Assembly: GCF_001590835.1 (NCBI RefSeq)
Contig: NZ_LTAQ01000001.1
Coordinates: 700,622 to 764,621, forward strand
Direction: 5' to 3'
Length of the DNA: 64,000 nt
DNA from: Bacillus gaemokensis
Lineage (GTDB): Bacteria; Bacillota; Bacilli; Bacillales; Bacillaceae_G
Shown here: one piece after another, positions 14,942 through 51,941 of the stretch
Layout of the letters: the number at the start of each line of letters is the position of its first letter
Position numbering within the stretch: position 1 is the stretch's first letter
Made by a program: the position numbers and the translations under genes
Notes under the pieces: generated by a model
Told to the model about the DNA's origin: nothing
Seen by the model: only the letters and a program-made list of their open reading frames with translations
Database searches by the model: none

Positions 14942-15066
14942 ACTTGCACCTCCTCATAATTACTAAGACTCGCCAAAACGAGGTAGACATAGAATGTCTT
15001 TTGAGAACCTGTCTTGCGCGGTTGTAGCATATAGCAGTTTAGGTGCTATAAACTATAACATAAAGA
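14942..15066 (-). ncRNA. L21 leader (cis-regulatory 5' UTR of rplU)
   Basis: The leader has a well-placed promoter and contains paired elements, including AACCGCGCAAGACAGGTT and AAAGACATTCTATGTCT followed by CTCGTTTTGGCGAG. The position and composition match the L21 leader of Firmicutes, thought to mediate ribosomal-protein feedback. The assignment is from position and hairpin pattern; no covariance search was possible. Confidence 0.7.
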
Positions 15067-29538: not shown

Positions 29539-29776
29539 TGCCCCTCATCCAAAAAGGACGAGGGACATCGTGGTACCACCTTTATTTACAAACAAATTCA
29601 AGATTTGCTTATACTCTTAATTGGATAACGGACAGATCCGTCTTTTCCTAATGAGAATGGTTCCGTTCAGAAAAGATGCTCCAGGGCTACCTTCTAACAT
29701 GACTATCTAGAGAATCTCACAGCTACTAATTCTCCTCTCTGCAGACGTTTAATGTTATACTCTTCCCTTTCAACGC
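29539..29776 (-). ncRNA. T-box riboswitch controlling valS
   Basis: The minus-strand leader has the T-box antiterminator sequence AGGTGGTACCACG (around 29568-29581), followed by a terminator, ATGTCCCTCGTCC / GGATGAGGGGCAT with a T-run (29539-29566). Upstream, Stem I has GAGAAT / ATTCTC around a GTAGCTGTGAG loop and a basal TAACAT / ATGTTA pairing. A GTC valine codon on the 3' side of Stem I (complement of 29701-29703) is the candidate specifier. Uncharged tRNA-Val would stabilise the antiterminator. Confidence 0.92.
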
Positions 29777-29777
29777 A

Positions 29778-29806
29778 TTTATATAATTGTTATTTATTAT
29801 ATACAA
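29778..29806 (-). promoter_or_regulatory. Candidate sigma-A promoter of the valS T-box transcript
   Basis: TTGTAT (29806-29801), 17-nt spacer, TATAAA (29783-29778) on the minus strand. A second TATAAT-like hexamer overlaps the spacer, so the start site is uncertain. Confidence 0.55.
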
Positions 29807-50165: not shown

Positions 50166-50198
50166 GAAAAACACCTAACAGAATTGAAGGTGATTTTT
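50166..50198 (-). terminator. Terminator of the endonuclease gene
   Basis: The minus strand has TCACCT, an 11-nt loop, AGGTGT, then TTTTC, directly after the stop of the PD-(D/E)XK gene. Confidence 0.65.
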
Positions 50199-50619
50199 AC
50201 GGGACTTCTCTATAATTGTCTGCAAAATTGATGTTCTTTTCTTGATGATTCTTCGCTGAATCTATTCTTAGACTAATTGATTTACGAAATGATTTTGGAT
50301 CAAAGTAATAGCACAAATCAGTTTGAAGACAGTATATACAATAAATATCTATTTCCTCTTTATCTACATTTTTTATAGTTATCCCATTTGTAGTCGAATA
50401 ACTAGAACGAAATCTAATTTCAAGTATTCCTCTCTCATTTAATTCTCTGTATTTCACCTGCACTCTCTTAAATACCCCTTCTTTGTAAACGACAAGATCA
50501 AATGGAGAATGTTCTGTGCATGGAGTTAAAATCATATATCCTTTTTCATACAAGTCCACCTGAGCCTTTAAAACACCTAAATCTCCTTTTGTTTTTTGTA
50601 TGATGATACATTTGTCCAC
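50197..50619 (-). CDS. PD-(D/E)XK endonuclease of the group I intron-associated type
   Basis: A 140-residue protein resembling I-Ssp6803I-type homing nucleases. The N-terminal core KTKGDLGVLKAQVDLYEKGY (residues 9-28), then SPFDLVVYKEGVFKRVQVKYREL (38-60), gives Asp41 and Gln54-Val-Lys56 as the PD-(D/E)XK site in its QxK variant. RFRSSYSTTNG follows as in this family. The start is a GTG at 50619 behind AAAGGTG. Family members cut intronless alleles so that a group I intron can spread. Here the gene is free-standing, but a tRNA-Arg with a group I intron lies 0.8 kb away, so the two may be partners. A role in another context cannot be excluded. Confidence 0.75.
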   Translation of the reverse strand: MDKCIIIQKTKGDLGVLKAQVDLYEKGYMILTPCTEHSPFDLVVYKEGVFKRVQVKYRELNERGILEIRFRSSYSTTNGITIKNVDKEEIDIYCIYCLQTDLCYYFDPKSFRKSISLRIDSAKNHQEKNINFADNYREVP

Positions 50620-50765
50620 TCAACACCTTTAAAGTTATTCTCTAAATTAAATTCGGTAGTTCATTCACAATCCCTCCTTCAATTTTTTAATTAAACTTAT
50701 AAACTCTCTATAAACATGGTAATATAATTTCGTACAATTCAGAATTCAAAAAGGGGATGAGTTAT

Positions 50766-51380
50766 ATGTTCAAAAAAGTGGCTGCTGATGTTTTAGGATT
50801 AAGCGATGTAGGTTCTGTGATCACACCGAAAGATTACGATAAAGTCGATGCTGATGATTATGTCATGCATGAAGATGGAGAAAAAATTTATTTTCTCATC
50901 AAATCAAAATCCGATGAGTATTGCTTTACAAACAAAGGATTAATTCATTTAGATGGGACAAGTGCAGCGAGCAAAAAACGCACGCTACGACGCTTTAGTT
51001 ACAGTAAATATCAAATCAGAAACGTAGCATTAGAAACTGCGGGCACAATTGATTTAGATGTGGAGATTAAATTTCATATGGGAGATGAATATTACTCAAT
51101 CGATGTTCACAAAAAACATATTGAAGAATTAAAAGACTTATATAAAGCCCTTCTAAAAATCGAAGAAATTTCCTACGAAAATGACATTACATTACAATAT
51201 GCTCATAGAAGTTTAGATATGGCCTCTAACACATTTAGCCGTATCACAAATGCACAACTTAATTTAGCAGAGCAATTTAAAGAAATAAATCAAACCGCTT
51301 TTAATTGGCTTGTTGATACGAAAAAGCAATATAACGTGAAAGATTATGGATTTGTCTTCGAAAAATTTATTAACAACTAA
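50766..51380 (+). CDS. PH-domain protein with YvbH-like extension
   Basis: A 204-residue protein from the ATG at 50766 (MFKKVAADVLGLSDVGSVI); the ATG at 50757 touches its GGGG site and is unlikely. The N-terminal 125 residues fit a bacterial PH domain (DYVMHEDGEKIYFLIKSKSDEYCFTNKGLIHLDG) and the C-terminal helices (about 140-204; YENDITLQYAHRSLDMASNTF) fit the YvbH oligomerisation extension. The function of this family is unknown. It is alone on the plus strand between the endonuclease and the tRNAs, with a TATAAT at 50723-50728 and a strong terminator. Confidence 0.82.
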   Translation: MFKKVAADVLGLSDVGSVITPKDYDKVDADDYVMHEDGEKIYFLIKSKSDEYCFTNKGLIHLDGTSAASKKRTLRRFSYSKYQIRNVALETAGTIDLDVEIKFHMGDEYYSIDVHKKHIEELKDLYKALLKIEEISYENDITLQYAHRSLDMASNTFSRITNAQLNLAEQFKEINQTAFNWLVDTKKQYNVKDYGFVFEKFINN

Positions 51381-51394
51381 TTTTTAGACAAATA

Positions 51395-51430
51395 AAAAAC
51401 CTTGTTATCAAAAGATAACAAGGTTTTTTT
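51395..51430. terminator. Bidirectional terminator between the PH gene and the tRNAs
   Basis: A 15-bp perfect stem AAAAACCTTGTTATC / GATAACAAGGTTTTT, 4-nt loop, T-runs on both strands. It ends the tRNA-Gly-tRNA-Arg transcript on the minus strand, 3 nt after the tRNA-Arg. Confidence 0.9.
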
Positions 51431-51432
51431 AG

Positions 51433-51793
51433 CGTCCCAGGAGAGATTCGAACTCCCGACCGACGGCTTAGCTTACCACCATAGCTTTCGCTACCAGCAA
51501 TTACTGTTTGTAGTCTGGACTATATCTTCACCATTTCAGGTGCGACACGTGTAGTCTCTACGGAACCTCACGATGATTTTCATCATACTTCAGAGTCTTT
51601 ACCATTAAGATTTACTTAATCATTCAAAACTCCTTAATCTTCTCAAGGAAAATCGTAAGTTTCCTCGGTATTACCATCAGCCGTACTGTTAAGGCTTCAC
51701 CGATATAGTGTCGTCCACTCTATAGGTTCTTGTTTCCCTATAAAGGCTCCTATTCTTGAAGGCCGTTGCTCTATCCTGCTGAGCTACTGGGAC
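51433..51793 (-). tRNA. tRNA-Arg(UCU) interrupted by a group I intron
   Basis: The 5' exon is 51793-51759 (35 nt: acceptor GTCCCAG, D-arm GCTC/GAGC, anticodon 5' strand ACGGC, loop CTT). The 3' exon is 51471-51433 (39 nt: CTAA, GCCGT, variable loop, T-arm GGGAG-TTCGAAT-CTCTC, acceptor CTGGGAC, discriminator G). Joined, they give a perfect 74-nt cloverleaf with loop CTTCTAA and anticodon UCU. CCA is not encoded. The break lies between U34 and C35, inside the anticodon. It is second in a tRNA-Gly-tRNA-Arg operon. Standard tRNA finders could miss it. Confidence 0.93.
51472..51758 (-). other. Group I self-splicing intron in tRNA-Arg(UCU)
   Basis: The 287-nt insert has the group I core on the minus strand: the R/P7 strand GTAGAGACTACACG (complement of 51548-51561) and the S strand AAGATATAGTCC (complement of 51517-51528), which pair as P7. 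The 5' exon ends in U and the intron ends in G (51472), as required. 5' exon GGCCUU can pair with GGAGCC (51750-51745) as P1, with a U-G at the splice site. Near the 3' end GGTAGC-GAAA-GCTAT makes a P9-type GNRA hairpin. No ORF lies inside. Confidence 0.88.
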
Positions 51794-51794
51794 A

Positions 51795-51868
51795 TGGAGC
51801 GGGTGAAGAGAATCGAACTCTCGACCAGAGCTTGGAAGGCTCTTGTTTTACCACTAAACTACACCCGC
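51795..51868 (-). tRNA. tRNA-Gly(UCC)
   Basis: A full cloverleaf on the minus strand: acceptor GCGGGTG / CACCCGC, D-arm GTTT...AAAAC, anticodon stem AGAGC / GCTCT with loop CTTCCAA (anticodon TCC), T-arm CGAGA-GTTCGATT-CTCTT, and an encoded CCA. One base separates it from tRNA-Arg. Confidence 0.96.
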
Positions 51869-51912: not shown

Positions 51913-51941
51913 ATTATATTTGTACGTGCAAATAAAGTCAA
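51913..51941 (-). promoter_or_regulatory. Sigma-A promoter of the tRNA-Gly-tRNA-Arg operon
   Basis: TTGACT (51941-51936), 17-nt spacer, TATAAT (51918-51913) on the minus strand, about 45 nt before the tRNA-Gly. Near-consensus, as expected for stable RNA. Confidence 0.85.

Follow-up and report, generated by a model that had tools for sequence, protein, structure and literature searches.

In the available sections of five papers (PMC3984707, PMC8450103, PMC4033280, PMC7717549 and PMC13096335), group I introns are described in the transfer RNA (tRNA) genes for Leu, fMet, Ile2 and Arg(CCU) of cyanobacteria and proteobacteria, and collaborative homing is described in phages. One of them, a 2014 review (PMC4033280), names cyanobacteria, alpha- and beta-proteobacteria and plastids as the hosts of tRNA group I introns. 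Phage introns observed up to that year are placed in protein genes by a 2014 review. BbgpI, the tRNA-Arg(CCU) intron of Bartonella, is stated in the accessible text to splice both in vivo and in vitro (PMC7717549). Group I introns of 22-49 nucleotides (nt) in cyanobacterial tRNAs, as given in the excerpt of PMC5733544, were set aside as comparators, being judged too short for the class, and the passages available from PMC12513839 and PMC7886860 have no bearing on tRNA-Arg(UCU). Here we describe a stretch of 64,000 nt from Bacillus gaemokensis (contig NZ_LTAQ01000001.1, positions 700,622 to 764,621; the whole stretch is hereafter the window), in which a group I intron of a mobile family very probably interrupts a tRNA-Arg(UCU) gene at the U34|C35 junction. 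The window intron is reduced and lacks a homing endonuclease gene (HEG), a copy of which lies downstream. We class this intron among the tRNA group I introns, as an addition to them; the open-licence literature covered, in the portions accessible, holds no mention of a tRNA-Arg(UCU) intron in Bacillus, the survey of the B. cereus group by Tourasse and Kolsto (2008) lying outside that scope.

With introns allowed, ARAGORN called a tRNA-Arg(tct) of 75 nt on the minus strand at 51793-51432, interrupted by an intron of 287 nt; with introns disallowed, it called no tRNA-Arg at 51793-51432. The parts of the gene, in window positions, are:

51759..51793, minus strand: exon 1 of tRNA-Arg(UCU), 35 nt, ending in U34 (ARAGORN, junction comparison)
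51472..51758, minus strand: group I intron of 287 nt inserted between U34 and C35 and ending in G (ARAGORN, junctions, covariance model)
51432..51471, minus strand: exon 2 of tRNA-Arg(UCU), 40 nt, starting at C35 (ARAGORN, junction comparison)

Exon 1 ends in ...CGGCCTT and exon 2 starts with CTAAGCCG, so that the anticodon UCU is divided as U34|C35. The joined exons form a cloverleaf with this anticodon in a conserved gene neighbourhood, and are identical at 75/75 bases to the intronless gene of Ectobacillus funiculus. In the window the junction can slip by one nucleotide, C being both the first intron base and the first base of exon 2. The intron of Domibacillus iocasae (L028), however, begins with T, which removes the slip and sets the cut at U34|C35. 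A first-pass annotation made from the letters of the window had named the gene tRNA-Arg(UCU), placed the junction between U34 and C35, and seen a U at the end of the 5' exon and a G at the end of the intron, all of which agrees with these results; it had also pointed to intronless alleles as a check, and such alleles were found, with the intron ends falling where it had placed them. It had overlooked both the occurrence of the intron in further genomes of the order and the homing-endonuclease-like gene downstream.

Model R1 finds the intron as its sole match in the window. Since the window belongs to the training set of R1, a further covariance model, R2, was built from 22 tRNA introns of viral contigs and phages (alignment A4), with no sequence from bacterial genomes; two of these 22 rows are tRNA-Arg(UCU) introns of viral contigs (L140 and L186). 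The window intron obtains 158.5 bits from R2 (E 1.3e-47), and no other place in the window exceeds 7.6 bits. At E 0.1 R2 matches none of 73 intronless loci and, among 75 loci next to the phosphoesterase gene described below, only L028 and L063. The alignments go back to at least 120 viral stretches that matched a pattern from the conserved 3' core; these, the previously collected loci and the window add up to 127 places, and in 106 of them ARAGORN called a split tRNA spanning the core motif, some anticodon calls looking shifted by one base. From 88 introns of 150-330 nt called by script, 35 were kept after thinning; 28 of these together with L028 form alignment A1 (L105, L143, L162, L178, L183, L195 and L199 were left out for doubtful ends). 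Alignment A2 is A1 minus L083, L095, L097, L125 and L150, plus L226-L228, and its 22 viral-contig and phage rows are A4; introns holding an intact or broken homing gene are excluded from the alignments. The elements placed on the window intron are:

51745..51750, minus strand: internal guide GGAGCC, pairing with the end of exon 1 (51764-51759) as P1, U34 opposite G, one C-A mismatch (hand-drawn, alignment)
51708..51713, minus strand: 5' strand of P3, partner 51548-51543 (61.7% of cells paired)
51665..51703, minus strand: P4-P5 domain, with P4 as TCGGT/ACCGA at 51703-51699 / 51669-51665 (hand-drawn, alignment)
51576..51653, minus strand: P6 extension, the site of the HEG in relatives
51552..51556, minus strand: 5' strand of P7, GACTA, partner TAGTC at 51522-51518, the guanosine-site helix (100% of cells paired)
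51529..51542, minus strand: P8 hairpin (hand-drawn, alignment)
51482..51493, minus strand: P9-region hairpin with a GAAA loop, TAGC GAAA GCTA (4/4 pairs change on both sides)

Across 27 aligned introns, 82.7% of the 1421 cells of the hand-drawn helices P1-P9 are paired, compared with 68.3% in shuffles. Changes on both sides affect 36 of the 62 pairs (28.4 in shuffles) and 223 cells (88.9 in shuffles), and covariation is 0.367 versus 0.150. Moreover, the RNA fold has a z of -4.86, with 0/200 shuffles as good. The intron therefore combines a covarying P3-P4-P6 and P7 core with a 5' exon U opposite G in P1 (at that column, a U faces G in 12/27 aligned sequences) and a terminal G. The P7 strands that the first-pass annotation had proposed hold, P7 being paired in every cell of the alignment, and the group I core it had claimed finds its support in R2, the Rfam score being below its cut-off. 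That score and several features of the helices weigh against the assignment. Rfam RF00028 does not detect the intron at its gathering threshold, and a permissive search of 481 bases gives 26.1 bits (E 1.1e-4) against the required 50, a value that is a curated cut-off and not a biological definition. P1 contains the C-A mismatch in the window and is paired in 62.2% of cells across the 27 introns, P3 does no better at 61.7%, and P7 is uninformative either way on covariation, since 4/5 of its pairs are invariant. In six slid versions the paired cells drop to 30.5-45.9%, a comparison in which the hand-drawn helices have an advantage, having been drawn from the window sequence itself.

Empty sites were scanned for by way of the neighbouring phosphoesterase (YsnB-like), which gave at least 80 loci; among the matches listed, the YsnB closest to that of the window is 58% identical. 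ARAGORN called a tRNA at 75 of the 80 listed loci, comprising 73 with an intronless tRNA-Arg(UCU) just downstream and two with an intron: L028 (271 nt) and L063 from Bacillus sp. FJAT-14578 (634 nt under the present junction assignment, whereas ARAGORN moves the junction and calls the tRNA SeC). In 397 genomes of the order that holds FJAT-14578 (Bacillales), R1 matches 82 genomes at E 0.001, and only the 18 reaching at least 88 bits were counted; every one of these carries the intron at tRNA-Arg(UCU), at the same site. Junctions were assigned by script in 16 of them and by eye in L243 and L246, the latter ending in ATG and not AAG. A BLAST search with one tRNA-Arg query (E 1e-4 for two genomes, 1e-11 for 16) found no second intact tRNA-Arg(UCU) in any of the 18, which do not include the window's own genome and whose assembly completeness is not stated; the six further full-length tRNA-Arg matches in these genomes are all CCU. 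Used as a DNA query, the intron matched 0/2 and 0/19 genomes in the first two genome searches. In a sample of the phylum, 6 of 398 genomes match at E 1e-12, three of the six without an ARAGORN tRNA call. One of the six, G698, has another split tRNA (ARAGORN Leu(caa), 252 nt), and 4/60 genomes of its order match at 1e-10. At least seven viral contigs (L084, L102, L140, L151, L171, L186 and L202) also hold tRNA-Arg(UCU) introns: L186 and L202 have the window's site and a similar intron start, L140 and L171 the same site, and L102 and L151 are called one base earlier; the L186 region has 0 matches in the phage collection. A tree of the intron cores is mostly without resolved branches. The intron is thus a member of a mobile family found in a minority of the order's genomes and in some viral contigs.

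Other split or intron-adjoined RNA genes were met in the same searches. Many IMG/VR contigs (within L085-L204, e.g. L086, L095 and L135) contain tRNAs split by group I introns, mostly Leu(UAA) according to ARAGORN, with Asn, Thr and Ser calls as well. Group I introns at transfer-messenger RNA (tmRNA) genes are already known. Weaker R1 matches occur in 64 other genomes, and of the seven inspected five adjoin tmRNA and two, elsewhere, reach the RF00028 cut-off. The tmRNA matches (L252-L255 and L258, loci around 1170-2110) score 43-47 bits with R1 next to the tmRNA 3' end, where RF00028 is below cut-off, which suggests candidate group I introns at tmRNA.

In relatives, the P6 extension houses the HEG in various states. 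An uninterrupted open reading frame (ORF) for the endonuclease fills P6 in L063 and L225, the gene is broken in viral contig L084, and remnants are clear in L246 (E 1e-13) and L247 (2e-7) and weak (E 0.001-0.002) in L233, L234 and L245. With the L063 enzyme as query, tblastn found no endonuclease remnant in the window intron or in the L243 intron (215 nt); by eye, the P6 extension of the window is like the short P6 of L226 and L227. The endonuclease matches PF11645 (E 4.4e-35), and in a profile search its sole match at E 0.1 or better is PDB 2ost (E 1.1e-6), which we take to be I-SspI from the cyanobacterial tRNA-fMet intron. D41 and Q54-V55-K56 are invariant in 8/8 aligned proteins, as befits the PD-(D/E)XK family of PF11645 and I-SspI. 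The window itself holds a copy outside the intron:

50197..50619, minus strand: free-standing PD-(D/E)XK homing-endonuclease-like ORF, 140 amino acids, GTG start, 812 base pairs downstream of the tRNA
50757..51380, plus strand: bacterial PH-domain gene between the tRNA and the endonuclease gene

At 1e-8, the window copy has matches in 7 of the 397 genomes, six of these among the 18 that bear the intron. Two are intronic; in L226, L227 and L228 a HEG-less intron is accompanied by a copy lying ~180-205 nt downstream; in G061, endonuclease pieces occur ~12 kilobases (kb) from its intron; and G072 has a distant 30% match near an intact tRNA-Ala. An ORF-less intron with a nearby free-standing endonuclease gene is accordingly present in the window and in three genomes. 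The copies of L226 and L227 are uninterrupted ORFs with the usual N-terminus (66% and 62% identity). Because synonymous divergence (dS) is mostly saturated, codon positions were counted instead: the window copy and L063 differ at 31, 13 and 67 first, second and third positions, respectively (67/111 third), a bias implying that selection acted for a long time on the encoded protein in at least one of the two lineages. In L228, the copy is succeeded by a 3' intron half (65.7 bits, R1), a degenerate exon 2 and then another downstream flank, an arrangement that we interpret as a putative duplication of part of the locus, with the intronic gene lost afterwards. In L226, a repeat of 12 nt is shared by the sequences that follow the tRNA and the endonuclease gene (0/300 shuffles as long). 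No match to the endonuclease was found in the plasmid collection. Taken together, the locus in relatives lays out the apparent stages of a homing cycle: intact, broken, remnant, gone and relocated.

Some details of the downstream copies tell against this account. The window endonuclease has an N-terminus that differs from the M..HHTK of the other seven aligned and starts with GTG, which hints at possible decay; in L228, an insert splits the copy. The longest stretch shared behind tRNA and endonuclease is 7 nt in the window (283/300 shuffles as long) and 9 nt in L227 (79/300). With no linking repeat in the window and a weak one in L227, a duplication origin rests mainly on L228. As a side observation, G061 (L230 and L286) carries a second piece of 3' intron and exon 2, together with endonuclease pieces, some 11-12 kb away from its split tRNA, a layout suggestive of an integrated element. 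A similar short insert (~0.2 kb) interrupts the endonuclease gene in L228 and L230, at different places.

Forty phage records have an endonuclease match, and the neighbourhoods were inspected in nine. The closest phage or viral homologs (54% identity) are in Synechococcus phage Sf-FR1, 67 nt behind an intronless tRNA-Arg(UCU), and in viral contig L205, 16 nt behind a tRNA with the loop CTTCTAA (ARAGORN: Pyl). In Herod, the homolog (36%) follows an intronless tRNA-Arg(UCU) at a distance of 21 nt. Wilder, Navo, HATV-2 and FKP10 have more distant homologs, located among other tRNA genes; ARAGORN finds two tRNAs within 1.2 kb of that in LR756508, and those in EFP01 and K54_rec4 have no annotated tRNA nearby. 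From these neighbourhoods, the enzyme lineage often tracks tRNA genes, its nearest branch tRNA-Arg(UCU). A tree of 11 endonuclease proteins, in which 1/8 inner branches is starred, leaves the order of origin without resolution. LR756508, a 484-kb phage, additionally has a group I intron in tRNA-Lys(UUU), ~430 kb from its endonuclease homolog (L081, L223). In L206 (1272-1760), ARAGORN calls a tRNA-Asn(GTT) interrupted by 415 nt; nearly all of this insert is a PF11645-like match (1321-1713), which leaves little room for a ribozyme. Viral contig L084 (1-12459) has an integrase-like ORF beside its tRNA-Arg(UCU), and 39 nt identical to exon 2 sequence occur in the Bacillus subtilis phages ON210834 and ON210835, observations that suggest a potential integration site at the 3' end of tRNA-Arg(UCU).

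Could the interrupted gene be a dead pseudogene, whose intron no longer splices and whose codon AGA is read by another tRNA? The RF00028 score below cut-off would suit this, and the search for another copy did not cover the window's own genome. Nevertheless, the exons show no mismatch to the gene of an intronless relative, the core is recognised by a model derived from other introns, and the junction is kept in 18 relatives in which no other UCU gene was found and a dead sole tRNA would be costly; we regard this explanation as highly improbable. A harder question is whether the intron is real and spliced while the downstream ORF is a leftover that no longer functions and plays no part in mobility. 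The GTG start and altered N-terminus fit a leftover, as do the split L228 copy, the L230 copy in pieces, the decay of the homologous gene inside the intron in several relatives, and the 12 of 18 intron-bearing genomes without an endonuclease match at 1e-8. Against it stand the uninterrupted ORFs of L226 and L227, the third-position bias, and the phage homologs, found in two cases immediately downstream of intronless tRNA-Arg(UCU), which indicate a lasting link with the target. We give a leftover slightly under an even chance.

The order of events might also have been the opposite, the free-standing copies being original: an endonuclease gene behind tRNA-Arg(UCU) would have joined an ORF-less intron by collaborative homing and entered P6 only later. 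The copies of Sf-FR1 and Herod behind intronless genes, and that of L205 close behind its tRNA, speak for this order. Against it, remnants of the homing gene persist in the P6 of several introns that lack a HEG, and a 3' intron half with exon 2 lies behind the copy of L228, so that an outward move fits better there; the protein tree does not settle the order. Free-standing copies as the starting point are, in our view, unlikely.

We prefer the reading of a tRNA-Arg(UCU) gene split by a reduced, HEG-less intron with a HEG copy downstream; its architecture comes from computation, and the reactions are those of group I introns in general. The flanking features are:

51795..51868, minus strand: tRNA-Gly(UCC), intronless, 1 nt upstream of the split tRNA (tRNA scan and Rfam scan)
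51913..51941, minus strand: sigma-70-like promoter, TTGACT-17-TATAAT, preceding both tRNA-Gly and the split tRNA-Arg (11/12 matches)
51394..51429, minus strand: terminator-like hairpin with a T run, 2 nt behind tRNA-Arg

The region has six promoter-like sites versus 8.5 in shuffles, which makes the promoter assignment weak evidence. Elsewhere in the window, a T-box leader (29551-29782) and a ribosomal protein L21 leader (14956-15033) both score above the Rfam cut-off. tRNA-Gly and pre-tRNA-Arg are probably co-transcribed, the transcript ending at the terminator behind tRNA-Arg. The intron would fold, its guide pairing with the end of exon 1 (P1, U opposite G), and guanosine would be bound in P7; a cut after U34 would be followed by joining of U34 to C35 after the last G of the intron. 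The mature tRNA would read AGA, a codon that may be read only after the intron has removed itself. In full members of the family, the I-SspI-like PD-(D/E)XK endonuclease encoded in P6 presumably cuts intronless tRNA-Arg(UCU) at the junction, and repair of the cut gene would copy the intron in. The window's downstream endonuclease gene is perhaps what remained after part of the locus was duplicated, a route suggested by the intermediate in genome G100. The intron and endonuclease may form a collaborative homing pair only if the enzyme cuts the insertion site, a target read from its position. More speculatively, a lineage of endonucleases specialised on the anticodon loop of tRNA-Arg(UCU) might travel between phages and Bacillales, taking three forms (following an intronless tRNA; in P6; following a tRNA with a HEG-less intron), the third still driving collaborative homing at an indispensable chromosomal tRNA, a tentative proposal that we think rather more apt to be wrong than right.

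Measured against the literature covered, tRNA-Arg(UCU) and the chromosomes of Bacillota extend the known host range of tRNA group I introns. Since no UCU gene besides the split one was found in the 18 intron-bearing genomes, AGA decoding there would depend on a ribozyme. The stages seen in relatives make the order of homing steps, and collaborative homing in a bacterium, directly testable. Annotation can overlook such tRNAs, as an intron-free tRNA scan and Rfam at threshold both did here.

Among known systems, the cyanobacterial and plastid tRNA-Leu(UAA) intron shares the U34|35 site and a similar core with the window intron but sits in another tRNA. The likeness to the Anabaena tRNA-Leu(UAA) intron, and with it a candidate place in subgroup IC3, is presumed; a tRNA-Leu(UAA) relative in Agrobacterium phage Atu_ph07 does align. 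The Synechocystis tRNA-fMet intron with I-SspI likewise joins a tRNA intron to a PD-(D/E)XK endonuclease of the same family; however, the tRNA differs, and here the gene lies in P6 of some relatives and outside the intron in the window. The alpha-proteobacterial tRNA-Arg(CCU) intron (Agrobacterium; Bartonella BbgpI) is also a group I intron in an arginine tRNA, but of isoacceptor CCU, in another phylum and with no endonuclease mentioned in the text available (PMC7717549). SegB of T-even phages is, like the window copy, a free-standing homing endonuclease often beside tRNA genes, but the accessible part of PMC13096335 assigns it to the GIY-YIG family, with no intron. The collaborative homing of two phages, as outlined in the available part of PMC3984707, likewise pairs a HEG-less intron with a free-standing endonuclease; in contrast to that phage system, the present putative one, with its target presumed, resides in bacterial chromosomes and at a tRNA gene.
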